From NCBI RefSeq assembly GCF_003692615.1, contig NZ_CP023540.1, positions 310,001 through 374,000 on the forward strand: a stretch of DNA of 64,000 nucleotides. Reading direction: 5' to 3'. Source of the DNA: Chryseobacterium sp. 6424. GTDB lineage: Bacteria > Bacteroidota > Bacteroidia > Flavobacteriales > Weeksellaceae. The position numbers were made by a program, and so were the translations under genes. Below, piece after piece: positions 9,646-49,994 of this stretch (position 1 is its first letter; the number at the start of each line of letters is the position of its first letter). The notes under the pieces were generated by a model, which was not told the DNA's origin, searched no databases, and saw only the letters and a program-made list of their open reading frames with translations.

Positions 9646-9962
9646 AGAATTGAGAGAGAAAAGAAGAAAGTATGAAGTATGTCCTGCGCTTCGATATTCG
9701 CTCATTCACCCTTTATCCTTCGCCTTGTCACGCTGAAAGCGTCTCACCAGTTGCGGAGGGCAAAAAGCAGTATAGATACTTTCAGAATGACCTACCGTGT
9801 GTAAGGGGTAAGCGTTCATTCACCATCACCATTGCCCTTTAAACACTATAATTGTCACGCTGAAGCGTCTCACCAGTTGCGGATGGTAAAACAGTATATA
9901 AATTCTTTCAGAATGACCTACTGTGTACAAGAGGTAAGCGTTCATTCACCATCACCACTCAT

Positions 9963-10021
9963 CATTCACCATTCACCATTCACCATTCACCATTCACCAT
10001 TCACCATTCACCATTCACCAT
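9963..10021. repeat. Heptanucleotide run (CATTCAC)n
   Basis: About 8.4 uninterrupted copies of CATTCAC fill a spacer of array A. Shorter runs occur in most other array A spacers, and five copies lie at 46779-46813 just before array B2. Runs of this kind expand and contract by slippage. Confidence 0.9.
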
Positions 10022-11288
10022 TGCTTAAACACTCCAATGGTCACGCTGAAAGCGTCTCACCAGTTGCGGAGGGCAAGAAGTATAGATTCTTTCAAAATGA
10101 CCTACTGTGTGCAAAAGGAAAGCGCTTCCTTTACCATTCACCATTGCCCATTTACCCCTTCACCATTCCCCTTAAGCACTCCAATTGTCACGCTGAAAGC
10201 GTCTCACCAGTTGCGGATGGTAACAACGGAGTATAAATTCTTTCAGAATGACCTACCGTGTGCAAGAGGTAAGCGTTTATTCACCATCACCATTCACTAT
10301 TCACTATTCACCATTCACCCACTCACCATTTACCATTGCCTCTTAAGCACTCCAGTTGTCACGCTGAAAGCGTCTCACCAGTTGTGGGTATTAAAAAAGT
10401 ATAGATTCTTTCAGAATGACATACCGTGTGTAAGAGTTAAGCGTTTATTCACCATCACCATCACCATTCCCCTTTAAACACTATAATTGTCACGCTGAAA
10501 GCGTCTCACCAGTTGCGGATGGTAACAACGGAGTATAAATTCTTTCAGAATGGCATATTGTGTGCAAGAGTTAAGCGTTTATTCACCATTGCCTATTCTC
10601 TATTCACCATTGCCCATTTACCCACTCACCATTCCCCTTAACCACTCCCATGGTCACGCTGAAAGCGTCTCACCAGTTGAGGGTATTAAAAAAGTATAAA
10701 TTCTTTCAGAATGACCTACCGTGTGCAAAAAGGAAAGCGTTCTCTTTACCATTTACAATTGCCCATTCACAATTGCCTACTCACCATCCATCATTCCCAT
10801 TGCCCCTTAAACACTCCAATGGTCACGCTGAAAGCGTCTCACCAGTTACGGTTGGCAAAAAGTATAGATTCTTTCAGAGTGACATATTGTGTGCAAGAGG
10901 TAAACGCTTCCTTTACCATTCACCATTTACCATTTACCTACTCACCATTCACTATTCCCATTCCCCCTTAAACACTCCAATGGTCACGCTGAAAGTGTCT
11001 CACCAGTTGCGGATGGTAAAACAGTATATAAATTCTTTCAGAATGACCTACTGTGTACAAGAGGTAAGCGTTTCTTCACCATCACCATCACCATCACCAT
11101 TGCCCTTTAAACACTATAATTGTCACGCTGAAAGCGTCTCACCAGTTGCGGTTGGCAAAAAGTATAGATTCTTTCAGAATGACCTACCGTGTGCAAGAGG
11201 TAAGCGTTTTTTTTACCATTTACAATTGCCCATTCACAATTGCCTACTCACCATCCATCATTCCCATTGCCTCTTAAGCACTCCAGTT

Positions 11289-11892
11289 GTCACGCTGAAA
11301 GGGTCTCACCAGTTGCGGTTGGCAAAAAGTATAGATTCTTTCAGAATGACATACTGTGTGCAAAAGGTAAGCGCTTCCTTTAACCATTCACCATTCACCA
11401 TTTACCTACTCACCATTGCCATTTAAACACTCATCAATTGCCCCTTAAGCACTCCAGTTGTCACGCTGAAAGCGTCTCACCAGTTGAAGGTATTAAAAAA
11501 GTATAGATTCTTTCAGAATGACCTACCGTATGTAAGGGGTAAGCGTTCATTCATCATCACCATCACCATTGCCTCTTAAACACTCCAATGGTCACGCTGA
11601 AAGGGTCTCACCAGTTGCGGTTGGCAAAAAGTATAGATTCTTTCAGAATGACATACTGTGTGCAAAAGGTAAGCGCTTCCTTTAACCATTCACCATTCAC
11701 CATTTACCTACTCACCATTGCCATTTAAACACTCATCAATTGCCCCTTAAGCACTCCAGTTGTCACGCTGAAAGCGTCTCACCAGTTGAAGGTATTAAAA
11801 AAGTATAGATTCTTTCAGAATGACATATTGTGTGTAAGGGGTAAGCGTTCATTCATCATCACCATCACCATTGTCTCTTAAACACTCCAATG
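11289..11892 (+). repeat. 302-bp higher-order tandem duplication inside array A
   Basis: The block 11289-11590, containing two elements and both spacers, is repeated almost exactly as 11591-11892, including the unusual AGGG stem variant and the CTCATCAATTGCCCC spacer. Element start spacing alternates 171, 131, 171, 131. This points to a recent unequal exchange within the array. Confidence 0.85.
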
Positions 11893-12348
11893 GTCACGCT
11901 GAAAGGGTCTCACCAGTTGCGGTTGGCAAAAAGTATAGATTCTTTCAGAATGACATATTGTGTGTAAGGGGTAAGCGTTCATTCATCATCACCATCACCA
12001 TTCCCCCTTAAACACTCCAATGGTCACGCTGAAAGCGTCTCACCAGTTGAGGGTAGTAAAAAAATATAGATACTTTCAGAATGACATACTGTGTGAAAGA
12101 TATAAGCGCTTCATTGCCCCTTCACCATTCCCCTTAAGCACTCCAATTGTCACGCTGAAAGCGTCTCACCAATTGCGGATGGTAACAACGGAGTATAAAT
12201 TCTTTCAGAATGACCTACCGTGTGCAAGAGGTAAGCGTTCATTCATCGTCACCATCACCATTGCCCCTTAAACACTCTAATTGTCACGCTGAAAGCGTCT
12301 CACCAATTGTGGATGGTAAAAACGGAGTATAAATTCTTGCAGAATGAC

Positions 12349-12687
12349 ATACTGTGTGCAAAAGGAAAGCCTTTTCTTTACCATTCACCATTGCCCATTT
12401 ATTATTCACCATCACCATTGCGCCTTAAGCAACTGTAGCTGTCACGCTACAAGAACTCATCACTGACATTAGAAAAGAGACGGCGAATAAACAGCGTCAT
12501 AAAATTCCTTTTTTTCTTACCTTTAGACCCGAAATTGTAATGTGGCCATAGTTGTGGTCGGCATCCCGGATCAAAACTTAAGAAGGTGAGGAAACCTGTT
12601 AACTTCCAGCCTCTCATGTGTCCAACGGTTGTGACGGATAAGGTGTTATACCCGGAATCTGAAAAAGAAAATAGCATCAGTTTTAGA
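12349..12687. other. Spacer between array A and the glycan locus
   Basis: The stretch begins with the last array spacer and a decayed half element (GTCACGCT at 12441-12448, with no matching stem). The rest is unique. An upstream in-frame extension of the epimerase to 12586 lacks the family's N-terminus and is not taken as coding. TACCTTTA near 12520 is a near-match to the -7 box and could be the promoter of the locus. Confidence 0.4.
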
Positions 12688-13656
12688 ATGGCAAATATAT
12701 TAATTACAGGTGGGGCAGGCTTTATAGGCTCCAATCTGTGCGATCGTTTCATCGCCAAAGGACATAAGATAACTTGTCTGGACAATTTTGCGACCGGCCA
12801 CCGACACAATCTTGCCGAACTTTTGCAACACCCAGACTTTACCCTGATGGAAGGGGATATCCGCGACGCTGAAACATGCCAGCAAGCCTGCGAAGGACAA
12901 GACTATGTGCTGCACCAGGCCGCGCTGGGTTCTGTTCCGCGGTCGGTCAATGATCCGGTAACCAGCAATGCCGTAAACGTAGGGGGCTTCCTGAATATGC
13001 TGGTAGCGGCACGTGATACCAATGTTAAACGCTTCGTCTATGCCGCGTCATCGTCCACGTATGGCGACTCCGAAAGTCTGCCGAAAGTCGAAGACGTCAT
13101 TGGCAAGCCGCTGTCACCGTATGCGGTGACCAAATACGTCAATGAACTTTATGCGGAGGTCTTTGCCAAGACGTATGGCATCGAATGCATTGGTTTGCGG
13201 TATTTTAACGTGTTTGGTCGTCGTCAGGACCCAAACGGGGCCTACGCCGCGGTGATTCCAAAGTTTGTGATCCAGCTGCTCCGACATCAGTCGCCCACGA
13301 TTAACGGCACCGGCGATTATTCACGTGATTTCACCTATATCGACAATGTGATCCAGATGAATGAACGTGCGATGCTGACCGATAATCCGGAAGCGGTCAA
13401 TACCGTGTACAATACCGCTGTGGGAGACCGTACCACGATTAATGACATGGCCCGGCTGCTCAAAGAGTACCTGTCTGCGTTCGATCCCAAAATCAAGGAA
13501 GTGGAAATCCTTTATGGGCCGGTACGTGCCGGTGATGTACCCCATTCGAAAGCCAGCATAGACAAAGCGGTCCAACTACTCGGTTATGCACCGAGCCATT
13601 CTTTCGCAACCGGACTTAAAGAAGCGGTGAACTGGTACTGGGATCAATTGAAGTAA
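12688..13656 (+). CDS. SDR-family UDP-N-acetylhexosamine(uronate) 4-epimerase, copy 1 (WbpP/TviC-like)
   Basis: I chose the ATG at 12688 because the family begins MANILITGGAGFIGSN; the frame is open upstream to 12586. The 322-residue protein has the NAD-binding GGAGFIG (8-14), the SSSTYGD segment and the catalytic YxxxK at Tyr145/Lys149. Family members interconvert UDP-GlcNAc/GalNAc or their uronic acids. It is very similar to the gene at 18890-19864, but its wording is more GC-rich, so the pair is either an old duplication or separately acquired. The partner dehydrogenase follows after 55 bp. The substrate (UDP-GlcNAcA to UDP-GalNAcA, as in Vi antigen synthesis) is inferred from that pairing. 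Confidence 0.88.
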   Translation: MANILITGGAGFIGSNLCDRFIAKGHKITCLDNFATGHRHNLAELLQHPDFTLMEGDIRDAETCQQACEGQDYVLHQAALGSVPRSVNDPVTSNAVNVGGFLNMLVAARDTNVKRFVYAASSSTYGDSESLPKVEDVIGKPLSPYAVTKYVNELYAEVFAKTYGIECIGLRYFNVFGRRQDPNGAYAAVIPKFVIQLLRHQSPTINGTGDYSRDFTYIDNVIQMNERAMLTDNPEAVNTVYNTAVGDRTTINDMARLLKEYLSAFDPKIKEVEILYGPVRAGDVPHSKASIDKAVQLLGYAPSHSFATGLKEAVNWYWDQLK

Positions 13657-13711
13657 AAAATTTCCCTGCATTCCATTCCAGCCAATACCTAAATAAACAC
13701 AAATATAAATA

Positions 13712-15472
13712 ATGACTTATAAAATCGCTGTGATCGGCCTCGGATATGTTGGCCTGCCGCTTGCCCGACTGTTTGCCACTAAATTTCCGGTAGTGGGTTT
13801 CGACATTAACCAGAGCAGGATTGATGAACTCCGCAACGGGACAGACACGACCCTCGAAGTCGAAGATGATCTCCTCCAGTCAGTCCTCCTCAACGAAAAC
13901 CCCTTCACTGTCCTAGCGGGCACCGACGGTGTAGCGCCCAGTCATGGCGGAGAGCAGCCCTCAGGCATGCACAGTCATTGCGAAGTGCGACCGAAGGAAG
14001 CACTGAAGCAATCCCAGCAATCAGAAACCCCTATCCCTTGTCATGGCGGAGAGCAGCCCTCAGGTATGCACAGTCATGGAGAGGAGAGACCCGAAAACAT
14101 AGTTAGCGACAAGCAATCATCGTCAGTCCCAACCCTTTGTCATTGTGAGGTGCGACCGAAGGAAGCGCCGAAGCAATCTCAGCAATCAGAAACCCCTGCC
14201 CATGGTCAAGGCGGAGAGCAGTCCTTAGATATGCACAGTCATTGCGAGGTGCGACCGAAGGAAGCACTGAAGCAATCCCAGCAATCAGAAGCCCCATCCC
14301 CCTGTCATTGCAGAGAGCAGCCCTCAGGTATGCACAGTCATTGCGAGGAGCGACCAACGGGAGCGAGGAAGCAATCTCAGTCCCAGGCGAAGCCAGGACT
14401 GTACTGTTCCACCTCCCTCACCGACATCGCCGGGGCCAACACCTACATCATCACCGTACCGACTCCCGTTGATAAAAATAACCGCCCGGACCTTACACCG
14501 CTGTACAAAGCCAGCGAAACCGTAGGCAAAGTCCTTAAAAAAGGCGATATCGTCATCTATGAATCGACCGTATATCCCGGAGCCACCGAGGAGGAATGCA
14601 TCCCGGTACTTGAAAAAGTAAGCGGACTGACGTTCAATGAAGACTTCTTTGCCGGCTATTCCCCGGAGCGCATTAATCCCGGCGACAAGGAACATACAGT
14701 GGAGAAAATATTAAAAGTAACCTCCGGCTCCACGCCGGAGACCGGGAAGGTGGTCGATGGACTGTACCGCTCGGTCATTACCGCGGGTACCCATCTGGCT
14801 CCGACCATTAAAGTCGCTGAGACTGCCAAGGTCATTGAAAATTCACAGCGCGACATCAACATCGCTTTCGTCAACGAACTGGCCAAGATATTCAACCTGA
14901 TGGACATTGATACCGATGCCGTACTCGAAGCGGCGGGCACCAAATGGAACTTCCTGCCCTTCCGTCCGGGATTGGTAGGCGGTCACTGTATTGGGGTGGA
15001 TCCGTATTATCTGGCGCAGAAAGCCCAGGAGTACGGCTACCACCCGGAGATTATTCTGGCGGGGCGTCGGCTCAATGATTCCATGGGCGAGTATGTGGCA
15101 TCACAGGTGGTGAAATGCATGATCAGGAATGGGATCAGCGTAAACGGTGCCGAGGTACTGATGCTGGGCATCACCTTCAAAGAAAACTGTCCGGATGTAC
15201 GCAATACCAAGATTGTGGATGTGGTGGCTGCGTTGGAAGATTACAACGTCAGGGTGAGTATCTGTGATCCGTGGGCCAATCCCGAAGAGGTGAAACACGA
15301 ATACGGCTTGGACTGTCAGCCTGAACTTACGAGAGAAGCCATCTACGATGCCATTGTACTCGGAGTCGCGCATAGGGAATTCCAAAACCTGGATTTGGAA
15401 AACCACAAAAAAGAGACAACAGTCGTCTATGATGTGAAAGGGATATTGGCGCAGGCAACCGCCAGATTATGA
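13712..15472 (+). CDS. Nucleotide-sugar dehydrogenase copy 1 (TviB/WbpO-like) carrying a 158-residue repeat-derived insertion
   Basis: The enzyme family oxidises UDP-HexNAc at C6 to the uronic acid with two NAD+. Rossmann motif GLGYVGLPLA (9-18), the PTPVDKNNRPDLTP segment (about 251-264) and catalytic Cys426 in GGHCIGVDPYY are intact. Compared with the 428-residue paralogue at 19948, the only large difference is 158 extra residues between about positions 68 and 226, encoded by expanded REP-like repeats (separate entry). The insertion is a multiple of three and stop-free, and it lies in the variable loop before YIITVP. The protein may still fold, but activity is uncertain. It follows its epimerase partner. 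Confidence 0.88.
   Translation: MTYKIAVIGLGYVGLPLARLFATKFPVVGFDINQSRIDELRNGTDTTLEVEDDLLQSVLLNENPFTVLAGTDGVAPSHGGEQPSGMHSHCEVRPKEALKQSQQSETPIPCHGGEQPSGMHSHGEERPENIVSDKQSSSVPTLCHCEVRPKEAPKQSQQSETPAHGQGGEQSLDMHSHCEVRPKEALKQSQQSEAPSPCHCREQPSGMHSHCEERPTGARKQSQSQAKPGLYCSTSLTDIAGANTYIITVPTPVDKNNRPDLTPLYKASETVGKVLKKGDIVIYESTVYPGATEEECIPVLEKVSGLTFNEDFFAGYSPERINPGDKEHTVEKILKVTSGSTPETGKVVDGLYRSVITAGTHLAPTIKVAETAKVIENSQRDINIAFVNELAKIFNLMDIDTDAVLEAAGTKWNFLPFRPGLVGGHCIGVDPYYLAQKAQEYGYHPEIILAGRRLNDSMGEYVASQVVKCMIRNGISVNGAEVLMLGITFKENCPDVRNTKIVDVVAALEDYNVRVSICDPWANPEEVKHEYGLDCQPELTREAIYDAIVLGVAHREFQNLDLENHKKETTVVYDVKGILAQATARL
13941..14378 (+). repeat. In-frame expansion of a long REP-like hairpin repeat inside the dehydrogenase gene
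   Basis: Hairpin units begin GTCATTGCGAGG or close variants and end AAGCAATCTC/AAGCAATCCC, at 13974-14015, 14139-14180, 14238-14279 and 14337-14378, with a decayed one at 14073-14120. Outer stem TTGC/GCAA and inner stem GTGC/GCAC pair; in the last copy the inner bases change together. They alternate with a second motif (GTCATGGCGGAGAGCAGCCC-like) at 13941, 14040, about 14204 and 14303. Translation gives recurrent SHCEVRPKEALKQSQQSE-like peptides. A closely similar hairpin is, from memory, a common intergenic repeat in Bacteroidota. Confidence 0.9.
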
Positions 15473-15740
15473 TTCAGTCATGCCTGGTCTTAAGGAATGA
15501 GTAAAGTATCAGACAAGACGGAGAGGGTGAACACGATTCGATACGCGGCATCATGTTGAAAAAGGCGATTGCCGATAAATTTCAAACATCATGGCGTTAT
15601 ATGAGGAAGAGAAGCAATCCTCCACCAAATTCATCTGCGAACCCAAATCCATTATTCAGCACAAACCAAGGAACAAAGCGGGTGGCGTTAAAATACACAG
15701 GGGATAGAAGGAGAGGTGCCACCACATAACGAATTTTAAT

Positions 15741-16547: not shown

Positions 16548-18890
16548 ATGGAATTACTTGAGCCAGTAAACGCTGCTAAAAAAAGTCCGCTGAATTTAAA
16601 AAAAGAAATCGCGAGATACCTGAAGAAATGGCCCTGGATGCTGCTGAGCCTCCTGTTGTTCTACATCGCGGCTAATGTATATTTACGCTACGCCACCGAT
16701 GTCTATCTTACAAAATCCAGTGTACAGATTGAAAACATGGAAAAAGGAAGTCTGGGGGCCATTCAGAATATGGGGGCCGTACCGGTAATGTCGAAACAGG
16801 GTTCCGGGGTGGAAATCCCAATCATCCTTTCACGGCCCATCCTGTACGAAGTAGTAAAAACACTCAATGCCGATGTGCGGTTTACAGTAAAAGGTCAGGT
16901 AAAAGAAGTAGAGTTGTATGAGGAATCCCCAGTGGAAATACGCATCCTGAACCTTAAGGATGCGGCCGGTTTTAGCGGCCAGACTTTTACTTTTACCGCT
17001 AAAGGGAACACCTCTTTCGAATTAAAGTCAGCGGAGGGCAAGGCCTATCATTTTCCTTATAATACCGTATGTACACTGGATTTCGGAACCTTTACCGTAA
17101 AGCCGAAAGCAGGTTTCCGTGCGATACAGCCGATGCAAGTGCACTTTATGAACGCCATAAAGGTGGCCGAAGGTTTACAGGGTGCCATCACCATTACCGA
17201 AAATGAGCTGAATACGGAGATTCTTGAGCTTGCCCACAGAACGGAAGTGCCGGCCAAATCCCGCGAGCTGCTCAATACGCTGATCATGCAGTACAACAAA
17301 GCCGATCTGGAGAATAAAAGAGAACAGTCCAAAGTATCGCTGGCCTTTATTGATGAAAGGCTGGAGGTACTCACGCAGGACCTGGGCGGTATTGAAAGTC
17401 AGAAGGAAGGGTTTAAACGCCAGAACAAGATTGCCGATTTAGCGGTGCAGGCAGAAATGTCTTTGCAGAATGCGAACGAAAACACCAAGGCGCTGTTAGA
17501 GCAGGCCACCCAGTTGGAAATGGTGAATGCGGTGCTGAATGCGGCCAACCGAAGCAGCCGCGAGCAGCTGCTGCCGGCAGGTGTGGGACTTCCCGATGGC
17601 GTGGATCAGGCTGTTACCCAGTACAACGACCTGATCATCACACGCAACAGGACCTTAAGGCAGGCCACACCAGCCAACCCGGCGGTGCAGGAGTTAAATA
17701 AAGAAATCACCTCACTGAAGTCACTGATTCAGGAAAACCTGACGAAATCAAAGCAGTCGATTCAGATGAACATCGCGCGGCTGAACGGACAGCTGAACGA
17801 GTCCAAAACAGATATTGCCAAATTCCCTACCCAGGAAAAGATTTTCCGGAATATCGACCGGCAGCAGAACCTGAAGGAATCACTCTACCTGTACCTCCTT
17901 CAGAAAAAGGAGGAAACCTCCATTGCCATGGCGGTAACAATGCCTAAGGTGCGCGTCATCAATCCGGCTTATACCATTTCAGGCCCGGTGGAACCCCAAA
18001 GCCAGCAGATACTGCTCGGCAGCCTTTTGGTGGGGCTTCTTCTTCCGGTTCTGGTGCTGTACGGTATATTTGCCCTGGATACTCAGGTGAAATCCAAAAA
18101 CGACATTACCGACCAGATGCCGGACCTGGCTGTACTGGCAGAAATACCGACCGTGGGCAAAGACGAAAGCGACCTTATTGGGAAAAATGACCTTTCTGTG
18201 TATGCGGAAGCGTTCCGGATACTGACTTCCAACCTGAAATTCATGGTGAAAAAGCAGGACATTGCTCCGGTATTTCTTTTTACCTCATCCGTAAAGGGAG
18301 AAGGCAAAACCACAATTTCCATTAACGCTGCCATGGCGCTAGCGTCCAATAAGAGAATTATCTTCATTGGGGCGGACCTCCGAAATCCGCAGCTGGGACG
18401 CTACGTGCCCAAAACCTATCTCGGGTTGTCGGATTATCTTGCGCAGGACGATCCGGAAAATTACCGTAAATTTATCCGGCAGTCCGACCTCCATGCCAAT
18501 CTGGACATCATGCAGAGCGGCAGTATACCGCCCAATCCTACCGACCTGCTCGAAGATGAAAAGCTGGGTCTGCTCCTTGACAGGCTGAAGAAAGAATATG
18601 ATTATATACTGATAGATTCGGCGCCGATGATGATGGTCAGCGATTCCTTCCACATATTGCGATTTGCAGACGTGGTCATTTATGTGGTTAGGGCAAACTA
18701 TACAGAGAAGGAACTTCTGAATTATGCCAAAACTGTTGCTGAAGACGAAAATGTGAAGAAGATGGCCTTTGTCCTGAATGACGTTCATAAGAATGAAATG
18801 CGCTACGGCTATGGCGGAAAATACAGTTATGGTTATACCGCGGAAAAAGAAAGAAAAGGTTTTTTTGATTTTCTCAAAAGAAATAATTAA
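16548..18890 (+). CDS. wzc: Polysaccharide co-polymerase and tyrosine autokinase (Wzc family)
   Basis: The 780-residue protein has a first membrane helix at about 27-47, a long periplasmic Wzz-type domain with coiled-coil stretches, a second membrane helix at about 487-510, and a cytoplasmic BY-kinase domain. Kinase motifs are Walker A SVKGEGKTT (about 580-590), Walker A' FIGADLRNP (about 604-612) and Walker B YILIDSAP (about 686-693), then a C-terminal Tyr cluster (RYGYGGKYSYGY). The protein sets chain length and drives export with Wza through cyclic autophosphorylation. Its stop codon overlaps the next start by one base (TAATG). Confidence 0.94.
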   Translation: MELLEPVNAAKKSPLNLKKEIARYLKKWPWMLLSLLLFYIAANVYLRYATDVYLTKSSVQIENMEKGSLGAIQNMGAVPVMSKQGSGVEIPIILSRPILYEVVKTLNADVRFTVKGQVKEVELYEESPVEIRILNLKDAAGFSGQTFTFTAKGNTSFELKSAEGKAYHFPYNTVCTLDFGTFTVKPKAGFRAIQPMQVHFMNAIKVAEGLQGAITITENELNTEILELAHRTEVPAKSRELLNTLIMQYNKADLENKREQSKVSLAFIDERLEVLTQDLGGIESQKEGFKRQNKIADLAVQAEMSLQNANENTKALLEQATQLEMVNAVLNAANRSSREQLLPAGVGLPDGVDQAVTQYNDLIITRNRTLRQATPANPAVQELNKEITSLKSLIQENLTKSKQSIQMNIARLNGQLNESKTDIAKFPTQEKIFRNIDRQQNLKESLYLYLLQKKEETSIAMAVTMPKVRVINPAYTISGPVEPQSQQILLGSLLVGLLLPVLVLYGIFALDTQVKSKNDITDQMPDLAVLAEIPTVGKDESDLIGKNDLSVYAEAFRILTSNLKFMVKKQDIAPVFLFTSSVKGEGKTTISINAAMALASNKRIIFIGADLRNPQLGRYVPKTYLGLSDYLAQDDPENYRKFIRQSDLHANLDIMQSGSIPPNPTDLLEDEKLGLLLDRLKKEYDYILIDSAPMMMVSDSFHILRFADVVIYVVRANYTEKELLNYAKTVAEDENVKKMAFVLNDVHKNEMRYGYGGKYSYGYTAEKERKGFFDFLKRNN

Positions 18891-19864
18891 TGAAAAAAGT
18901 ACTCGTTACCGGTGGAGCCGGTTTCATAGGTTCTAATTTGAGTGAAGCTCTCATTACACAGGGTTATCAGGTGAGATGCCTGGATAATTTTGCGACCGGT
19001 AAAAGGGAAAATTTGACAGAGCTTCTGAAATCAAAAAGATATGAACTGATTGAAGGGGATATCCGCAATTTTGAAACATGTCTCCAGGCCTGTGAAGGGA
19101 TAGACTATGTGCTGCACCAGGCCGCACTGGGTTCGGTTCCCCGCTCGATCAATGATCCCATTACAAGCAATGAAGTTAATGTAGAGGGATTTCTTAATAT
19201 GCTGAAAGCTGCATCCGAGAACAATGTTAAACGGTTTGTCTACGCGGCCAGCTCGTCCACCTATGGAGATTCCACCGCATTGCCGAAAGTGGAGGAAAAA
19301 ATAGGCAAGCCGCTGTCACCGTACGCGGTAACGAAGCTGGTCAACGAAATCTATGCGGATGTGTTCCATCGTACTTACGGAATTGACACCATCGGACTTC
19401 GCTATTTTAATGTTTTTGGCAGAAAACAGGATCCAAACGGCGCTTATGCGGCGGTTATTCCCAAGTTTACGATGCAGCTGATGAACTATGAATCTCCGGT
19501 AATCAATGGTGACGGCACTTATTCCCGAGATTTCACCTATATCGATAATGTGATCCAGATGAATTTGCTTGCGATGGAAACGGATAATACAGAAGCACTA
19601 AACGAAGTTTACAATACTGCTGTTGGCGACCGCACAACGATTAAGGATATGGCTGAACTGCTGAAAAAATACCTCAGTGAATTTGATCCGAAAATTGGTG
19701 AGGTGGAAATTAAAAACGGTCCTAACCGTCAGGGAGATGTACCGCACTCGAAGGCAAGCATCGAGAAAGCCCAGCAACTCCTCGGCTACCAACCCAGCCA
19801 CAAATTTGCAAAAGGTTTGAAAGAAGCAGTGGCGTGGTACTGGGAAAATTTAAAAAAAGTCTGA
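18890..19864 (+). CDS. SDR-family UDP-N-acetylhexosamine(uronate) 4-epimerase, copy 2 (WbpP/TviC-like)
   Basis: The 324-residue paralogue of the 12688 gene shows the same GGAGFIG (8-14) and Tyr145/Lys149 YxxxK motifs and the same YSRDFTYIDNVIQMN segment. It overlaps the wzc stop by one base, so it is translationally coupled to the export operon, and the matching dehydrogenase follows. It probably converts UDP-GlcNAcA to UDP-GalNAcA or acts on the non-oxidised sugars. The two copies may be redundant or may differ in substrate. Confidence 0.9.
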   Translation: MKKVLVTGGAGFIGSNLSEALITQGYQVRCLDNFATGKRENLTELLKSKRYELIEGDIRNFETCLQACEGIDYVLHQAALGSVPRSINDPITSNEVNVEGFLNMLKAASENNVKRFVYAASSSTYGDSTALPKVEEKIGKPLSPYAVTKLVNEIYADVFHRTYGIDTIGLRYFNVFGRKQDPNGAYAAVIPKFTMQLMNYESPVINGDGTYSRDFTYIDNVIQMNLLAMETDNTEALNEVYNTAVGDRTTIKDMAELLKKYLSEFDPKIGEVEIKNGPNRQGDVPHSKASIEKAQQLLGYQPSHKFAKGLKEAVAWYWENLKKV

Positions 19865-19947: not shown

Positions 19948-21234
19948 ATGAACCATAAAATAGCCGTCATCGGTCTTGGATATGTTGGATTGCCACTGGC
20001 GCGACTGTTCGCGACCAGGTTTCCGGTCGTAGGATTCGATATCAATACGGAGAGAGTACAGGAACTGGCAGACGGGCATGATGCGACGCTTGAAGTTTCA
20101 GACGAACTTCTCCAGTCTGTCCTTCTCGCAGATAGTCCTTTTAATTCCGGGAAAAACGGGCTTCTTTGCTCTGCAGACACTGCGGATATCGAAGATGCGG
20201 ATATCTACATCATTACCGTGCCTACTCCGGTGGACAAAAATAACCGCCCGGTGCTTACCCCTTTGATAAAAGCCAGTGAAACCGTTGGCAAAGTGATAAA
20301 AAAGGGCGATATTGTGGTGTACGAATCTACAGTTTATCCCGGAGCAACTGAAGAAGACTGTATTCCTGTCGTGGAAAAAATTTCCGGCCTGAAATACAAT
20401 GTAGATTTCTTCGCGGGCTACTCCCCCGAAAGAATTAATCCCGGCGACAAAGAACATACGGTAGAAAAAATTCGGAAAGTCACTTCAGGCTCCACGCCCG
20501 AAATCGGGAAAGTGGTGGATGATCTGTACAAAGCAGTGATTACTGCCGGAACGCATCTTGCGCCGTCCATCAAAGTTGCGGAAGCGGCTAAGGTGATTGA
20601 AAATTCCCAGCGCGATATCAACATTGCCTTTGTGAATGAGCTGGCGAAAATTTTCAACCTCATGGATATTGATACCCATGCGGTACTGGAAGCAGCAGGC
20701 ACCAAATGGAACTTCCTTCCTTTTAAACCGGGCTTGGTGGGCGGTCATTGCATTGGGGTAGATCCTTATTATCTGGCACAGAAAGCGCAGGAGTACGGTT
20801 ACCACCCGGAAATAATTCTCGCGGGAAGAAGACTGAACGACTCCATGGGGAAATATGTGGCAGAGCAGGTTATAAAGACAATGATTAAAAAGGATATTCC
20901 GGTGAAAGGAGCCGGGGTGCTGATGCTGGGGATTACTTTTAAAGAAAACTGTCCGGATGTCCGGAATACCAAAATAGTAGATGTCATTGCAGCGCTGGAG
21001 GATTTTGGAGTGAAGGTTACCACTTATGATCCATGGGCTGATCCTGCAGAGGTAAATTATGAATACGGTGTGCACAGCTGCACAGAAATACCTCAGCATA
21101 CATTTGATGCAGTGGTATTAGGCGTAGCTCACAAAGAATTTGTTGATCTGGATATCAGTTCCCTGAAAAAGCCGAATGCTGCAGTCTTTGATGTAAAAGG
21201 CATTCTTAAAGAGAAAGCAGATGCAAAATTATAA
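19948..21234 (+). CDS. Nucleotide-sugar dehydrogenase copy 2 (TviB/WbpO-like), normal length
   Basis: The 428-residue enzyme has GLGYVGLPLA (9-18), the VPTPVDKNNRPV segment (about 91-102), catalytic Cys268 in GGHCIGVDPYY, and the C-terminal KENCPDVRNTKIVDV region. This is the usual length of UDP-HexNAc 6-dehydrogenases that make UDP-HexNAc uronic acids. It lacks the insertion seen in copy 1 and so is the likelier main enzyme. It is followed with a 1-base gap by the first FdtA-like cupin when that gene starts at 21236. Confidence 0.92.
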   Translation: MNHKIAVIGLGYVGLPLARLFATRFPVVGFDINTERVQELADGHDATLEVSDELLQSVLLADSPFNSGKNGLLCSADTADIEDADIYIITVPTPVDKNNRPVLTPLIKASETVGKVIKKGDIVVYESTVYPGATEEDCIPVVEKISGLKYNVDFFAGYSPERINPGDKEHTVEKIRKVTSGSTPEIGKVVDDLYKAVITAGTHLAPSIKVAEAAKVIENSQRDINIAFVNELAKIFNLMDIDTHAVLEAAGTKWNFLPFKPGLVGGHCIGVDPYYLAQKAQEYGYHPEIILAGRRLNDSMGKYVAEQVIKTMIKKDIPVKGAGVLMLGITFKENCPDVRNTKIVDVIAALEDFGVKVTTYDPWADPAEVNYEYGVHSCTEIPQHTFDAVVLGVAHKEFVDLDISSLKKPNAAVFDVKGILKEKADAKL

Positions 21235-42480: not shown

Positions 42481-44288
42481 GTCATTCTGAAAAAATCTCC
42501 ACTGCTATGGTCACACTCTGCTTTTAACGCCCAGCTTGTCCCGTCCTTTTGTCCCACCCTTTTGTCATTCTGAAAGAATCTCCGCTGCTTTTGTCGCGCC
42601 CTGCTTATAACGCCCAGTTTGTCGCACCCTTTTGTCCCACCAGTTTGTCATTCTGAAAGAATCTTGCTGTTATGGTCACGCTCTGCTTGTAACGTCCAGT
42701 TTGTCCACCAAGCTTGTCCCTCCTTGTTGTCATTCTGAAAGAATCTACTGCTTTTGTCGCTTCCTTTTGTCCCATTCAGTTTGTAGCGCCCAATTTGTCC
42801 ATCCAGTTTGTCCCGCCCTTTTGTCCCGCCCAGTTTGTCATTCTGCAAGAATCTCCACTGCTTTTGTCGCGCCCTGCTTATAACGCCCAGTTTGTAGCGC
42901 TCAATTTGTCACACCCAGTTTGTCATTCTGAAAGAATCTCCGCTGCTATGATCACGCGCTTTTGTCCCACTCAGTTTGTCATTCCGAAAGTATCTCACCA
43001 ATAATTACCAGCGCAGTTGAGACGCTTTCAGCGTGACAAAAAGGGCGTAGAGACGCCCAGTTTGTCACACCCAATTTGTCCATCCAGTTTGTCCCGCCCT
43101 TTTGTCCCCTCCTTTTGTCATTCTGCAAGAATCTCCGCTGCTTTTGTCGCGCCCTTTTGTCCCATCCAGTTTGTAGCGCCCTTTTATCCCCGCTCAGTTT
43201 GTCCCGCCTTTTGTCATTCTGTAAGAATCTCCGCTCCTTTTGTCCCACCCTTTTGTCATTCTGCAAGAATCTGCACCAATAATTACCAGCGGCAGTTGAG
43301 ACGCTTACAGCGTGACAAAAAGGGTGCGTAGAGACGCCCTGTTTGTAACGCCCAGTTTGTCACACGCTTTTGTCTCCGCGTCCTTTTGTCATTCCGAAAG
43401 AATCTCCGCTGCTATGGTCACACTCTGCTTGTAACGCCCAGTTTTTCACGCCCTTTTATCCCCGCTCAGTTATTCCCGCCCTTTTGTCATTCCGAAAGTA
43501 TCCCACCAATAATTACCAGCGGCAGTTGAGACGCTTTCAGCGTGACAAAAAGGGTGCGTAGAGACACCTATTTGTCATTATTGACCTCATTCACGATTGA
43601 CCATCCACGATTGACCATCCACTCTTAATACTCAGCTTGTCCACCCAGTTTGTCGCGCCCTTTTGTCCCACCCAGTTTGTCATTCTGAAAGAATCCCCAC
43701 TGTTATATTCACGCTTTGTTGTAACGTTCAGTTCGTAGCGCCCAATTTGTCACGCGCTTTTGTCATTCTGAAAGAATCCCCACTACTTTTGTCCCATCCA
43801 GTTTGTCGCGCCCAGTTTGTCCCGTCCTTTTGTCCAATAATTACCAGCGCAGTTGAGACGCTTTCAGCGTGACAAAAAGGATGCGTAGAGACACCCTGTT
43901 TATAACGTTCAGTTTGTCCCGTCCTTTTGTCCCACCCAGTTTGTCATTCTGAAAGAATCCACACTGTTATAGTCACGCTTTGTTTTAACGTTCAGTTCGT
44001 AGCGCCCAATGTGTCACGCCCATTTGTCATTCTGCAAGAATCTCCACCAATAATTACCAGCGGCAGTTGAGACGCTTTCAGCGTGACAAAAAGGGTGCGT
44101 AGAGACACCCAGTTTGTCCTTCTGAAAGAATCCCCACTGTTATGGTCACGCTCTACTTATAACGTCCAATTTGTCGCGCCCTTTTGTCCCATCCAGTTTG
44201 TCCCGCCCTTTTGTCCCACCCAGTTTGTCATTCTGCAAGAATCTGCACCAATAATTACCAGCGGCAGTTGAGACGCTTTCAGCGTGAC
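42481..44288 (-). repeat. Array B1: hairpin satellite with 14-bp monomers and REPIN-like elements
   Basis: The region is built of 14-bp monomers of the type CGCCCTTTTGTCCC or ACCCAGTTTGTCAT. About every 83 bp a hairpin GTCATTCTGAAAGAATCT interrupts them (starts 42481, 42564, 42647, 42729, 42837, 42922, 43117, 43213, 43388, 43679, 43762, 43943 and a variant near 44116). Complete inverted pairs lie at 42978-43037, 43255-43316, 43486-43546, 44026-44087 and 44227-44288, with a left-truncated one at 43832-43873. Read on the minus strand these begin GTCA-CGCT-GAA-AGCG-TCT like array A, so the orientation is opposite. The many short open frames here are translated repeats. Confidence 0.9.
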
Positions 44289-44478
44289 AAAAAGGGTGCG
44301 TAGAGACGCCCTGTTTGTTATTATTGACTTCATTCACCATTACCCATTCACGCTTAATACTCAGCTTGTTCACCCAATTTGTCCCACCCACTTTATCCCG
44401 CCCTCAAGCGTCCCACGTTGTAAAACGCTTATCACATACAGTGCAGGCCTGGGAAATCGGTGCATAAAGTTCACGCAT

Positions 44479-44514
44479 AAAAAAAAGTTTATTGAAACAG
44501 GTTCAATAAACTTT
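44479..44514 (-). terminator. Rho-independent terminator of the minus-strand unknown gene
   Basis: Read on the minus strand, a perfect 13-bp stem (AAAGTTTATTGAA and its complement, 5-nt loop) is followed by a run of eight T. It lies 77 bp after the stop of the gene at 44591-45346 and separates that gene from array B1. Confidence 0.85.
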
Positions 44515-44590
44515 AGCCAGTACAGCAATGGCAGGCAATAGTATTACCTCATATCTCCTGCCATCTTTTGTACTGTTTCATCCGCGACCA

Positions 44591-45346
44591 CTAAGGCAGC
44601 AGGTAACCAATCACCCCAAGCGCGTTATACTGTTTGTTCTTAAGCGGGTAGCGCGTACCGTTCAGCACCTGATAATATGCTGCGAGCAGCAGATAGAACA
44701 CCGGCAGTGTGCCACCCGGGATCTGTGACACGGCGAGTTGCAGGTCAACAGGGTCCGGGGTTTTAGGGACGGTCACATTGGGGCTTTCCGTCAACGTATA
44801 GGTGCCTTCACTGAAATCCACCTGCACGGCGATCAGCTGCAGGTCGGCTTCCGTAGCGCCTTCCGGGTACAGCAGGTGCTTCTGCGGAATAAAGGCAGGG
44901 TAGTTCAGCGTGCCTTCTTCCGCGTTCAGCGCTTGAAGCTGTAGAAAAACCTGCGCGATTTGTCCGTTCATATTAAACTCAAAACCGTTGAGCGCCTTGG
45001 GTCCGTCGGGGTGCTGCAAGCCGGTAGGGACGTTACGCGTGCCGCGTGGCGATACCTCATCCAACGCCTTGATGTCATGCATCACCTTGTTGAGCCGGCT
45101 GCTCGTGCGGTGGTCCTTCGCCAGTTCCACCTTGTCTGAAACACTCTTGCGGAACAGCTGTGCCATCTTTGCGCAGTGTGCGAACTCACTTCCGTTTTCA
45201 CGGGTTCTTTCAAAGGCCGGGTCCTTGTGGATACGCTCCTTGCTGACGCCCCCTTTGGTGCGGATCATCTGTCCGTCTTTTGACTTGTAAAAAGTCATCC
45301 CTTTTAATGTACCTTCAATCCCAAAGATACCGTCGAATCGTGCCAT
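44591..45346 (-). CDS. Conserved hypothetical protein of unknown function
   Basis: The 251-residue protein begins MARFDGIFGIEGTLKGM and has a KGGVSKERIHKDPAFERTRE segment (about 32-51). I recall similar N-termini in uncharacterised Flavobacteriia proteins but know no function. It is soluble, with no signal peptide or membrane helix, helical in the first half and beta-rich with Pro in the second. It lies between arrays B1 and B2, diverges from the gene at 45675, and has its own strong terminator, so it is a real expressed gene rather than repeat noise. Confidence 0.75.
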   Translation of the reverse strand: MARFDGIFGIEGTLKGMTFYKSKDGQMIRTKGGVSKERIHKDPAFERTRENGSEFAHCAKMAQLFRKSVSDKVELAKDHRTSSRLNKVMHDIKALDEVSPRGTRNVPTGLQHPDGPKALNGFEFNMNGQIAQVFLQLQALNAEEGTLNYPAFIPQKHLLYPEGATEADLQLIAVQVDFSEGTYTLTESPNVTVPKTPDPVDLQLAVSQIPGGTLPVFYLLLAAYYQVLNGTRYPLKNKQYNALGVIGYLLP

Positions 45347-45674
45347 AATACTAAAATTTAGTGGAGATCCCGTCCGACAGTGGCCTGCTGCGTCTGTTAG
45401 CTCCCGTTAATAAAATATGTTCCGGTAACACTGAGGCAAATGTAAGCGCCTCTAAACAGATACACAACAAGATACAGCCGTTACGTCACAAAATGGCAGT
45501 TTAGTCCTATATTGTCCGAAATGTCTTAAAATAATCACCAAAAATCGTAAGGAAGTGAATGGTGGAAAAGTTTTAAAATGCACAAAATCAATAAGATATA
45601 AATATACTATTTGCGATAATTTGGTGGCAAAGGAACGATATGCTATTTTTATCAGCACAATTAAAACACAAACA

Positions 45675-46673
45675 ATGGTGATTGATAATAAAACAGTCGA
45701 AAAAGCATTGAATGAGGTGGCACGTTCCATCCTGGACGAGCAGCAGTTAACTGAAACCAGCCAGCGCCTCACCGCTACCGCCAATCAGTTTATTGAAGAG
45801 CATACAGAGATGTTCACTTCAGCGGAAGAAGTATCGAATTATACCGAAGAACTGTGCGAACGGATGCAGCGTTATTTCGAAGCACTGAACGATTTGCTGT
45901 CAGGAGACAGATTCTATCACTCGGCGACCTCCGCCATACGTCATACCCTGTACAGCGACGATCTCAACTGGTTTTATATCAGGATTAAGGAACTGATGGG
46001 GGACATGCTGCTGGAAGTCTTTGTGAGTAATGAAACTGAAAATTTTAAAAATATCATCGGGCGGATTCTTAAACGTCGGCAGTGGAAACAGTTTGCACGG
46101 CTGCCTTTCATGGCGGTAATGAACCCGGAAATGCATACCATTCAGCAGGAATTGTTACACAGGATGCTTCGGGCATTTGAAGCGCAGTGCCTTGCCTATG
46201 AACCTGAACCTGAGCAACAGCGCTATGTTCACGGGTTGCTGGCTCTGCTGGCGGAGATGCGTGCCACGGTGGAAAGCATGATGTTTCACACGCAGGCAGG
46301 CGGACTGGCGGAACAGGCAGGCACTGCACCCCAGTACCTTGCGGAGGCCGTAGCCATTGATAAGTCTCCCGTGCAGCTACAGAGGCCTGAATTTCCGTCA
46401 TGGATCTTCTCTTCGGAAAAAGCCTTCGGCATCTTCTGTAAAGTGCATGACAGTTTTTGCAGGTCTGAAAGCGATCTGGCTTATCTGTATCGCCGCACCT
46501 CGGACGCACGTTTGGTCGTGTCGGGTATGGCGACATTTAAGGATTGGTACAACAACTGGGAGGGCCGCCGTTTTGAGACTTGGAATCATTTCCGCACACT
46601 TGCGCGGCTCGAGAATACCCGCCGTGCTACTTCCTACAACTTAGCCTGTGCACACGCTGGTTTCTCTACCTGA
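45675..46673 (+). CDS. Hypothetical protein of unknown function
   Basis: I chose the ATG at 45675 (MVIDNKTVEKALNEV); the frame is open to 45555, but that extension is AT-rich and unlike protein. The 332-residue product looks wholly alpha-helical and soluble, acidic in the first half, with Cys and Trp in the C-terminal third (FCKVHDSF, WYNNWEGRRFETWNHF). No known domain is recognised. It diverges from the gene at 44591 across a 328-bp AT-rich spacer (45347-45674) that must hold both promoters, although no exact TAnnTTTG box is seen. Repeats flank the pair on both sides. Confidence 0.72.
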   Translation: MVIDNKTVEKALNEVARSILDEQQLTETSQRLTATANQFIEEHTEMFTSAEEVSNYTEELCERMQRYFEALNDLLSGDRFYHSATSAIRHTLYSDDLNWFYIRIKELMGDMLLEVFVSNETENFKNIIGRILKRRQWKQFARLPFMAVMNPEMHTIQQELLHRMLRAFEAQCLAYEPEPEQQRYVHGLLALLAEMRATVESMMFHTQAGGLAEQAGTAPQYLAEAVAIDKSPVQLQRPEFPSWIFSSEKAFGIFCKVHDSFCRSESDLAYLYRRTSDARLVVSGMATFKDWYNNWEGRRFETWNHFRTLARLENTRRATSYNLACAHAGFST

Positions 46674-46778
46674 CCCCTGCGTCGGGCCACCCATCAACCC
46701 ATGGTATTAATCCACCCTTTACTAATGATCAATGATCAATGACCCTTTACCAATAATCAATGACCATTCACTATTAAC

Positions 46779-47730
46779 CATTCACCATTCACCATTCACC
46801 ATTCACCATTCACGCTTAACACTCAGCTTGTCCACCAATTTGTCACGCGCTTTTGTCACACTCTGCTTGTCCCGCCCTTTTGTCCCACCAGTTTGTCATT
46901 CTGAAAGAATCTCCACTGCTTTTGTCGCGCCCTGCTTATAACCCCCAGTTTGTCACGCCCTTTTGTCACACTCTGCTTATCCCGCCTTGTTGTCATTCTG
47001 AAAGAATCTCTACTGCTTTTGTCGTGCCCTTTTGTCCCATCCAGTTTGTCGCACCCTTTTGTCCCACCAGTTTGTCATTCTGCAAGAATCTCCACTGCTA
47101 TAGTCACACTCTGCTTGTAGCGCCCAGTTTGTCGCACCCTTTTGTCCCACCAGTTTGTCATTCTGAAAGAATCTCCGCTGCTATGGTCACACTCTGCTTG
47201 TAACGCCCAGTTTTTCACGCCCTTTTGTCACACTCTGCTTATCCCGCCTTGTTGTCATTCTGAAAGAATCTCTACTGCTTTTGTCGCGCCCTTTTGTCCC
47301 ATCCAGTTTGTCCCGTCCTTTTGTCCCACCCAGTTTGTCATTCTGGAAGAATCTCCGCTGCTATGGTCACACTCTGTTTGTAAAGTCCAGTTTGTCACGC
47401 CCTTTTGTCACGCGCTTTTGTCATTCTGAAAGAATCCCCGCTGCTTTTGTCGCGCCCTTTTGTCCCATCCAGTTTGTAGCGCCCAATTTGTCACACCCTT
47501 TTGTCATTCTGAAAGAATCTCCGCTGCTTATGTCGCACTCTTTTGTCATCCAGTTTGTACGCCATTTGTCACGCGCTTTTGTCATTCTGAAAGAATCCCC
47601 GCTGCTTTTGTCGCGCCCTTTTGTCCCATCCAGTTTGTAGCGCCCAATTTGTCCCACTCAGTTTGTCATTCTGAAAGAATCTCCGCTGCTATGGTCACAC
47701 TCTGCTTGTAGCGCCCAATTTGTCCCCAGC
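46779..47730 (-). repeat. Array B2: 83-bp hairpin satellite, preceded by a heptamer run
   Basis: Five copies of CATTCAC (46779-46813) lead into ten hairpins of the GTCATTCTGAAAGAATCT family starting at 46895, 46992, 47074, 47157, 47254, 47337, 47420, 47503, 47581 and 47665. Spacings are 97, 82, 83, 97, 83, 83, 83, 78 and 84 bp: essentially 83, or 83 plus one 14-bp monomer. No complete inverted pair is present here. Open frames across it are repeat translations. Confidence 0.9.
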
Positions 47731-47799
47731 GTGGTTATTACGAGGTTTCGCCTACCAATAAAAATCCGACATATTTCTATAAGATAAAAGAATCTAAGC

Positions 47800-47807
47800 T
47801 ATCTTTG
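47800..47807 (+). promoter_or_regulatory. Candidate -7 box for the GIY-YIG gene
   Basis: TATCTTTG matches TAnnTTTG exactly and lies 13 bp before the ATG at 47821, with unique AT-rich sequence between it and array B2. No clear -33 element is visible. Confidence 0.5.
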
Positions 47808-47820
47808 AAAAAACACAACG

Positions 47821-48141
47821 ATGGATCACTTTACTGAAGGTTTTCATACTTATTATGTATATATTCTCACCAATAAAAACAGAACCGTGCTTTATACCGG
47901 CGTAACGAACAATCTTCACCGGCGGTTGCATGAACACCATATCAAATTTAATCCCAGAAGTTTTACTGCCCGGTATCAGGTAGAATTTCTGATTTATTAT
48001 GAAAAATTCACTTGGATACACCATGCGATTGAAAGGGAAAAAGAAATCAAAAACTTAACCCGCCTGAAAAAACTTCATTTGATAAGAACGGCCAATCCAA
48101 ACATGACTTTTCTAAACCATATATTCAGCAATAAGGTATAG
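47821..48141 (+). CDS. Small GIY-YIG nuclease-domain protein (UPF0213-like)
   Basis: The 106-residue protein is essentially one GIY-YIG domain: YYVYIL (about 11-16, the GIY strand), LYTGVTNNLHRRLHEH (about 24-39, with the YIG strand as YTG and the conserved Arg), and a later Glu in AIEREKEIKNLTR (about 69-81). Small stand-alone members are common in Bacteroidota; their cellular role is unclear, and a metal-dependent nuclease is expected. It sits alone between arrays B2 and B3 with its own promoter. A link with the surrounding hairpin repeats is speculative. Confidence 0.88.
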   Translation: MDHFTEGFHTYYVYILTNKNRTVLYTGVTNNLHRRLHEHHIKFNPRSFTARYQVEFLIYYEKFTWIHHAIEREKEIKNLTRLKKLHLIRTANPNMTFLNHIFSNKV

Positions 48142-48186
48142 TCGAGGTCCCGCCCAGTTTGTCTCGCGCTTTTGTCCCACCAGTTT

Positions 48187-49994
48187 GTCATTCTGAAAGA
48201 ATCTCCGCTGCTATAGTCACGCTTTGTTGTAACGTCCAGTTTGTCGTGAGCTTTTGTCGCGTCCTTTTGTCATTCTGAAAGAATCTCCACTGCTTTTGTC
48301 GCGCCCTGCTTATAAACCCCCAGTTTATAACGCCCAGTTTGTAGCGCCTTGTTGTCATTCTGAAAGAATCCATACTGCTTGTCGCGCCCTTTTGTCATTC
48401 CGTAGGAATCTCCACTGCTAAAGTCACGCTCTGTTTGTAACGTCCAGTTCGTAGCGCCCAACTTGTCCATCCAGTTGTCGCGCCCTTTTGTCCCACTCAG
48501 TTTGTCATTCCGAAAGTATCTCACCAATAATTACCAGCGCAGTTGAGACGCTTTCAGCGTGACAAAAAGGATGCGTAGAGACACCCTGTTTATAACGTCC
48601 AGTTTGTCCCGTCCTTTTGTCCCGCCCAGTTTGTCATTCTGCAAGAATCTCCACTGCTTTTGTCGCTTCCTTTGTCCCATTCAGTTTGTAACGTCCAATT
48701 TGTCCCACCCAGTTTGTCATTCTGCAAGAATCTCCACTGCTAAAGTCACGCTCTGCTTGTAACGTCCAGTTTGTCCATCCAGTTGTCCCACCCTTTTGTC
48801 CCACCCAGTTTGTCATTCTGAAAGAATCTCCACTACTAAAGTCACGCTCTGCTTGTAACGTCCAGTTTGTCCACCCAGTTTGTCTCACGCCCTTTTGTCC
48901 CACCCAGTTTGTCATTCTGAAAGAATCTCCACTGCTATAGTCACACTCTGCTTGTAGCGCCTAATTTGTTCACCCAGTTTGTCCCGTCCTTTTGTCACAC
49001 CCAGTTTGTCATTCTGAAAGAATCTCCACTGCTAAAGTCACGCTTTGTTGTAACGTCCAGTTTGTCGTGAGCTTTTGTCGCGCCCTTTTGTCCCTCCAGT
49101 TTGTAGCGCCCAATTTGTCCATCCAGTTGTCCCGCCCTTTTGTCCCACCCAGTTTGTCATTCTGCAAGAATCTCCGCTGCTATAGTCACGCTTTGTTGTA
49201 ACGTCCAGTTTGTCGTGAGCTTTTGTCGCGTCCTTTTGTCATTCTGAAAGAATCTCCACTGCTTTTGTCGCGCCCTTTTGTCCCATCCAGTTTGTCGCGC
49301 CCAATTTGTCCATCCAGTTGTCCCACCCTTTTGTCCCACCCAGTTTGTCATTCTGAAAGAATCTCCACTACTATAGTCACGCTCTGCTTGTAGCGCCCAA
49401 TTTGTCCACCCAATTTGTCTCACGCCCTTTTGTCGCGTCCTTTTGTCATTCCGCAAGAATCTCCGCTGCTATGGTCACACTCTGCTTATAACGTCCAGTT
49501 TTTCACGCCCTTTTATCCCCGCTCAGTTAGTCCCGCCCTTTTGTCATTCCGAAAGTACCCCACCAATAATTACCAGCGCAGTTGAGACGCTTTCAGCGTG
49601 ACAAAAAGGGTGCGTAGAGACACCCTATTTGTCATTATTGACTTCATTCACCATTGGCCATTCACCGTTCACGCTTAACACTCAGCTTGTCCACCAATTT
49701 GTCACGCGCTTTTGTCACACTCTGCTTGTCCCGTCCTTTTGTCCTGCCCAGTTTGTCATTCTGAAAGAATCTCCGCTGCTATGGTCACACTCTGTTTGTA
49801 AAGTCCAGTTTGTCACGTCCTTTTGTCACACTCTGCTTATCCCGCCTTGTTGTCATTCTGAAAGAATCTCTACTGCTTTTGTCGCGCCCTTTTGTCCCAT
49901 CCAGTTTGTCCACCTAGTTTGTCGCACCCTTTTGTCATTCCGAAAGAATCTCCACCAATAATTACCAGTGCAGTTGAGCCGCTTTCAGCGTGAC
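48187..49994 (-). repeat. Array B3: hairpin satellite with REPIN-like elements
   Basis: Hairpins of the GTCATTCTGAAAGAATCT family start at 48187, 48269, 48354, 48394, 48633, 48716, 48812, 48911, 49008, 49156, 49238, 49347, 49445, 49755 and 49852. Typical spacings are 82-83, 96-99 and 109 bp. Complete inverted pairs lie at 48504-48563, 49543-49602 and 49934-49994, oriented as in B1. Loops vary (GAA, GCA, GTA, GGA) while the TTCT/AGAA stem is mostly kept. The sequence from 49995 to about 50146 is ordinary and without a gene. Confidence 0.9.

Follow-up and report, generated by a model that had tools for sequence, protein, structure and literature searches.

The closest described relatives of the repeats reported here are the CGTC-tagged REPs (Di Nocera et al. 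2013, PMC3733652), a superfamily with an unpaired CGTC head (often TGTC or CCTC), a stem of 8-9 bp that opens with A and T residues, a loop of 4-5 nt and a tail fitting CCA. According to that paper, dimers and clusters of these elements occur, Bacteroidetes are among the phyla having them, and they apparently lack a dedicated transposase. Intragenic copies are known as well, including RPE-4 and RPE-6 of Rickettsia conorii; the larger intragenic clusters named there encode 43 to 82 aa, and one case of REPs at about the same site is given, in recB of two Xanthomonas species. The same source describes REPtrons, in which genes for RAYTs (Y1 transposases) are flanked by REPs. RPEs are intergenic palindromes that also occur fused in frame to conserved protein genes (Delihas 2007, PMC2229807), and an RPE-carrying guanylate kinase is reported there to be translated and active, with a changed affinity for its substrate. 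That a repeat can be turned into protein is already known, as these two sources describe for RPEs and intragenic REPs.

Here we analyse a GTC-headed hairpin repeat within a nucleotide-sugar dehydrogenase gene of Chryseobacterium sp. 6424. The window, a stretch of 64,000 nt (G000:C1:310001-374000), belongs to a single contig of 2,586,303 bases that represents the whole genome (G000). The gene (13712-15472, + strand) encodes 586 aa with the N-terminal, central and C-terminal UDPG_MGDP_dh domains, and it scores 380.7 bits against the nucleotide sugar dehydrogenase model TIGR03026, passing the cut-off of 189.8. Its score against the TviB equivalog NF011729 (UDP-GlcNAc C-6 dehydrogenase), 545 bits, is under the cut-off of 592, and therefore "TviB-like" is the limit of naming. 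As the initial annotation had pointed out, an insert-free paralogue lies 6 kb away (19948-21234, + strand, 428 aa). The two proteins differ in length by exactly 158 residues; residues 1-74 are 69% identical and those from residue 224 onwards 77%, and their alignment places the insert at 13907-14380 (+ strand, 474 nt, residues 66-223). The initial annotation had delimited the repeat as 13941..14378; the repeat units do begin at 13941, but the insert itself starts 34 nt earlier, at 13907, and ends at 14380. Its count of exactly 158 added codons without a stop is borne out, with no stop in the coding frame versus 6, 2, 10, 11 and 2 in the other five frames. The nucleotide-binding motif GLGYVG (residues 9-14) and the catalytic Cys426 (codon at 14987-14989, + strand, in GGHC) are intact, as it had also stated.

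Comparison with four orthologues and the paralogue gave pN of 0.11-0.22 versus pS of 0.66-0.96 (near saturation) on both flanks of the insert. Judged from these values, purifying selection acts on the host gene on either side of the insert, and the enzyme seems to be maintained. In the phylogenetic tree, the second copy in the window is placed in a different part from the insert-bearing gene and is therefore not a recent duplicate of it. By sequence reading, an NAD-dependent epimerase-like gene lies directly upstream of the insert-bearing gene (12586-13656, + strand) and a second, similar one precedes the paralogue (18890-19864), and the two-gene module of epimerase-like gene and dehydrogenase thus appears twice in the polysaccharide locus.

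Behind its first 34 nt, the insert is built of units each headed GTCA, with lengths, in order from 13941, of 33, 66, 33, 66, 66, 33, 66, 33 and 44 nt. All of these units share one codon phase, and the in-frame hairpin repeat claimed by the initial annotation is real; its multiplication within the gene, likewise claimed, took the form of 99-nt (33 + 66) units. Type A units of 33 nt are found at 13941-13973, 14040-14072, 14205-14237 and 14304-14336, and type B units of 66 nt at 13974-14039, 14139-14204 and 14238-14303, with a partial copy at 14337-14380 (all + strand); a diverged 66-nt unit occupies 14073-14138 (+ strand). The type B unit contains a GTC-ATTGC..GCAAT-CCC hairpin (13974-14015, + strand), and the general form of the repeat is GTC-[A..T hairpin]-CTC/CCC. 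The insert contains three strict hairpins of this form and the window 55, versus a mean of 0.6 in 20 mononucleotide-shuffled windows; their abundance in the window is not due to chance. Differences between units point in opposite directions, with pS of 0.26 and pN of 0.09 among the B units and pS of 0.08 and pN of 0.15 among the A units.

The insert peptide contains no F, Y or W and has S, E, Q, P and H in abundance, a composition that suggests disorder; it is also HSHC-rich, which would make metal binding conceivable. When residues 60-230 were compared with 5.8 billion proteins, candidates being limited to 0.55-1.75 times the query length, the sole match was the 380-aa protein of the same genome. 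RNA structure was rejected as the function of the insert, since the RNA of 13941-14380 folds no better than its shuffles (z +1.59, with 94 of 100 shuffles equalling or bettering it). In addition, there was no excess of promoters or terminators in 12400-15600.

The repeats resemble CGTC-tagged REPs, as described in PMC3733652, in being small GTC-headed hairpins that are mostly intergenic and sometimes lie in frame within conserved genes, but they differ in several respects. The base before GTC, which is C in the CGTC tag, is A in three and T in one of the four hairpin copies in the gene, whereas at the genome's own GIY-YIG locus (2428508-2428885) the copies read have C or T there; GTC itself was required by the search. 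The contiguous outer stem is 5 bp in the window, as against 8-9 bp, and encloses a long interior in the gene. The first stem pair is always A-T, as required by the search, and is followed by a T-A pair in the ATTGC and ATTCT stems and not in ACGCT. The tail is CTC or CCC instead of CCA: the 55 hairpins of the window came from a search for these two tails, and CCA was seen at one locus of the class-wide set described below (L251). Stems and loops differ also. The insert of 158 aa exceeds the 43 to 82 aa of the clusters named in that paper, two loops of one enzyme are reused genus-wide, and a GIY-YIG gene is linked to repeats of a kind described as apparently lacking a transposase. With RPEs, as described in PMC2229807, our repeats have in common that they occur both between genes and, in frame, within conserved protein genes; however, RPEs are rickettsial elements of 105-146 bp, whereas the present units are of 33 and 66 nt, belong to Bacteroidota and multiply in tandem. 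In our literature search, nothing nearer was found on such repeats in Flavobacteria or Chryseobacterium. Meanwhile, by title or start of abstract, no paper joining GIY-YIG proteins with REPs or palindromic repeats was found in a coverage that leaves out preprints and most subscription journals.

Elsewhere in the genome the repeat is mostly intergenic, in agreement with the initial annotation. An array of GTC-ACGCT..AGCGT-CTC hairpins lies on one side of the polysaccharide genes (9727-12301, + strand); the other side has an array (42564-44288) comprising GTC-ATTCT..AGAAT-CTC as well as GTC-ACGCT hairpins, which continues around a GIY-YIG gene (46895-49870). All 76 genome matches to the patterns of these two short-stem families fall within a 40-kb stretch, 319,727-359,994 (9727-12301 and 42564-49870 of the window), and bracket the polysaccharide locus. 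Between the parts of the second array are two ORFs of 251 and 372 aa (44591-46673) with no Pfam match over cut-off, and runs of CATTCAC/ACCATTC 7-mers stand beside the hairpins at 9943-10022 and 46742-46820. The ATTGC hairpin has 16 matches in the genome, three of them in the dehydrogenase gene, seven at 2428159-2428970 around a GIY-YIG gene and six elsewhere. Among the last six, two overlap antisense ORFs of spurious appearance and one lies in a 215-aa ORF without a Pfam match (L301:908-1555, - strand; G000:C1 about 1,880,107-1,880,754), where the antisense hairpin is in frame (ERLLRSARND); this ORF is a possible second coding insertion in the genome. Downstream of one conserved gene, EF-G-like by reading and present in 32 of the 36 genus genomes, ATTGC hairpins are present in four of 30 genomes, namely our own and three sisters, of which one has an imperfect stem; the other 26 lack them. 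In G029, a GIY-YIG gene also occupies that spot.

GIY-YIG homing endonucleases consist of a single small GIY-YIG domain. The genome has two GIY-YIG genes over the PF01541 gathering score of 22.6 bits (52.7 and 53.7 bits), which are like them in this respect, except that here the gene is flanked by hairpins. The gene in the window (47821-48141, + strand, 106 aa, 52.7 bits) lies in the short-stem array, and the other (G000:2428508-2428885) is surrounded by ATTGC hairpins; a match to a group I intron endonuclease model was also seen, below cut-off. The arrangement recalls that of REPtrons, as outlined in PMC3733652, in that a small nuclease gene is flanked by hairpin repeat copies, often inverted. 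However, the REPtron gene is a Y1_Tnp gene, and Y1 transposases, present in 30 of the 36 genus genomes, were rejected as mobilisers here on account of the lack of GTC-hairpins within 400 bp at all 22 genus Y1_Tnp loci examined.

The linkage between hairpins and GIY-YIG genes holds across the genus. With a relaxed tail, hairpins were found within 400 bp of the GIY-YIG gene at 22 of 23 loci, on both sides at 14, versus three of 60 asnB and dsbD control loci under the same rule, all three with AT-rich stems unlike the repeats. One query protein found all the linked loci tested. The relaxed version was set after the strict motif, which missed other tails, had found 16 of the same 23 loci in 1.5-kb flanks (10 of 16 and 6 of 7); the strict counts were 0 of 7 for weak GIY-YIG relatives, 0 of 30 for asnB, 2 of 30 for dsbD and 7 of 29 for the flanks of the dehydrogenase gene. 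Weaker relatives also had no hairpins within 400 bp at any of five loci, two more being too short. In the GTCATTGCGAGG..GAAGCAAC repeats of the single miss, L129, the outer pair is mismatched, and L138 is counted as positive on the strength of a stem (AGGTC) that resembles none of the others. Stops in the matched frame, some of them just in the pre-start leader or at the end, were noted in 13 GIY-YIG stretches (L122, L123, L124, L126, L127, L131, L133, L137, L147, L148, L150, L241 and L247), and some copies may be decaying, as expected of mobile-gene turnover. GIY-YIG matches (E <= 1e-15) lie within 50 kb of the dehydrogenase in 13 of 23 cases, versus 0.8 expected at random placement.

Outside the family, 12 GIY-YIG loci were taken at E <= 1e-30 from 295 genomes of the class. 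Hairpins are present at all 12 (11 genomes of 11 families), on both sides at 10, with a density of 5.28 per kb within 500 bp versus 0.09 farther out. The type of stem tracks the nuclease clade: in the ATTGC group, taken together with its relatives from the class-wide set, 21 of 22 loci have an NNNGC stem, and in the other group none of 11 (Fisher 6e-8, a value that ignores shared ancestry). This count leaves out L129, which has no strict hairpin, and L138, which groups with unlinked relatives.

The comparison of orthologues that the initial annotation had proposed, extended to sister species, revealed other repeats at the same two sites of the enzyme across the genus; this recurrence and the GIY-YIG linkage had been overlooked in that annotation. 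Site 1 is the loop of the 158-residue insert and site 2 is near paralogue residue 382. Site 1, we take it, is flanked by a helix ending LLQSVL and by the strand GLYCS; site 2 presumably separates a helix from the strand DAIVLG. In Rossmann folds, helix-to-strand loops of such type lie on the face opposite the cofactor, and a surface-loop position of the insert would fit this topology. From the 36 genus genomes, 30 orthologue loci were returned (one per genome); 17 of them have at least five extra residues at site 1 or site 2, and eight have an insert with a strict GTC-hairpin. Among the remaining six genomes, G025 and G022 also have extra residues, and an open frame of 428-440 aa is present in each of G004, G024 and G035; in G026, nothing matched the dehydrogenase at E <= 1e-60. 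In G022, the dehydrogenase is split across two contig ends (L292 and L293) near site 2, as if repeats had broken the assembly.

In a wider set of 68 distinct ORFs, some from loci picked for looking long, there are 43 inserts totalling 5,400 bp. A sense hairpin is found in 11 of these and an antisense hairpin in none, versus 0.41 on average, and never more than 2, in 100 dinucleotide shuffles. The hairpin sequences of the inserts vary between species, and simple repeats of other kinds were seen within some sister inserts. On a protein tree of 51 rows, with the site-1 and insert columns removed and 19 of 48 inner branches weak, hairpin presence requires a minimum of five changes at site 1 and of two at site 2, gain and loss being indistinguishable; in two of the rows (L019 and L031) the script did not pick up the site-1 hairpin, which was identified by eye. 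Four insert types from different species (L012, L014, L015 and L019/L031) set in at one and the same codon of site 1, after NP[FS], and may reflect an old insertion with later divergence. A survey of hairpins in other long ORFs of the examined loci gave 42 rows, in which, by eye, repeat-derived sequence is confined to the dehydrogenase and one leader before it (L016).

Several other explanations of these observations were weighed. It is possible, though on balance unlikely, that the two loops are simply permissive. Slippage or illegitimate recombination would then bring in whatever repetitive DNA lies nearby, and the GIY-YIG genes would be passengers that share the variable region. The 32 of 43 inserts that lack a strict hairpin, several of them simple repeats such as PQPQPEP and HPAPST, show that the loops are permissive in general and accept other DNA too; moreover, no GIY-YIG match was found in four of the nine genus genomes with a strict hairpin insert (G009, G023, G033 and G034), and a resident nuclease and an insert are thus not strictly paired. 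Permissive loops, however, do not lead one to expect hairpins that are all in the sense direction, several site-1 hairpin inserts of different species setting in at one codon, or linkage of hairpins and GIY-YIG genes in 11 other families at loci chosen regardless of dehydrogenase proximity. Against a spread by the nuclease, no target duplication was identified.

The remaining explanations concern the insert-bearing copy itself. That it is a decaying duplicate, in which chance has kept the frame open and which survives thanks to a working second copy, is very improbable. The paralogue 6 kb away invites this reading, and the insert stays stop-free in 20% of runs of a neutral simulation, so that the open frame alone is weak evidence of selection; yet on either flank of the insert pN falls well short of pS, the conserved motifs are intact and the two copies are not recent duplicates. 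Furthermore, in six sister genomes (G005, G018, G023, G031, G033 and G034) the sole close copy of the gene itself contains a strict hairpin insert, and tolerance through redundancy, as suggested by the initial annotation, was rejected on these grounds. Very little credence can be given to translation from Met207, within the insert, which would yield a 380-aa protein with most of the insert as leader. The database protein P0001 (380 aa) begins at this residue, which hides the fusion in the database record, but such a product would be devoid of GLGYVG, and the first 62 codons of the ORF are conserved and subject to purifying selection. The chance of an assembly artefact is close to negligible: long tandem repeats are prone to mis-assembly, but the genome is a single contig, the frame is exact and sister genomes have analogous inserts.

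We regard as somewhat probable the explanation in which a mobile REP-like hairpin entered a permissive dehydrogenase loop in frame and grew by 99-nt duplication, with a GIY-YIG nuclease spreading the hairpins. Of this, the sequences themselves show how the repeat is built, that the frame is open, that repeat-derived inserts recur at two sites in sister species, and that hairpins are tightly linked to GIY-YIG genes with a matching stem type. In outline, a short mobile GTC-[A..T hairpin]-CTC/CCC repeat would enter the loop in frame, and the insert would then grow by duplicating its 99-nt unit; the unit lengths of 33 and 66 nt are multiples of three, and the frame would thus be kept during growth. 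The GIY-YIG nuclease (for the ATTGC repeat, that encoded at G000:2428508-2428885) would cut at or near hairpins and thereby spread them, mostly between genes and around the polysaccharide locus, and coding insertions would survive where the loop tolerates them and the frame remains open. The cell would make the 586-aa protein as an active enzyme, in which the insert would form a disordered excursion on the side that faces away from the active site.

As CGTC-tagged REPs are described as apparently without a dedicated transposase, the linked GIY-YIG nuclease becomes a candidate mobiliser of the hairpins. A broader proposal, to which we give about even chances, is that small GIY-YIG nucleases are dedicated mobilisers of GTC-headed hairpins in Bacteroidota, each clade reading its own stem (NNNGC or ATTC/ACTC type), that the gene travels between inverted hairpins, and that the repeats become protein where they land in frame in a tolerant loop. 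As far as our searches extend, the length of the insert, the two recurrent sites across a Bacteroidota genus and the GIY-YIG link appear to be new. At two loops of a metabolic enzyme, hairpin DNA repeats have time and again become protein-coding sequence, and the genus offers a natural series of insert lengths and origins for probing what an enzyme tolerates. Meanwhile, a concrete candidate for what moves CGTC-type REPs is at hand in a GIY-YIG nuclease some 100 residues long that is accompanied by matching hairpins.
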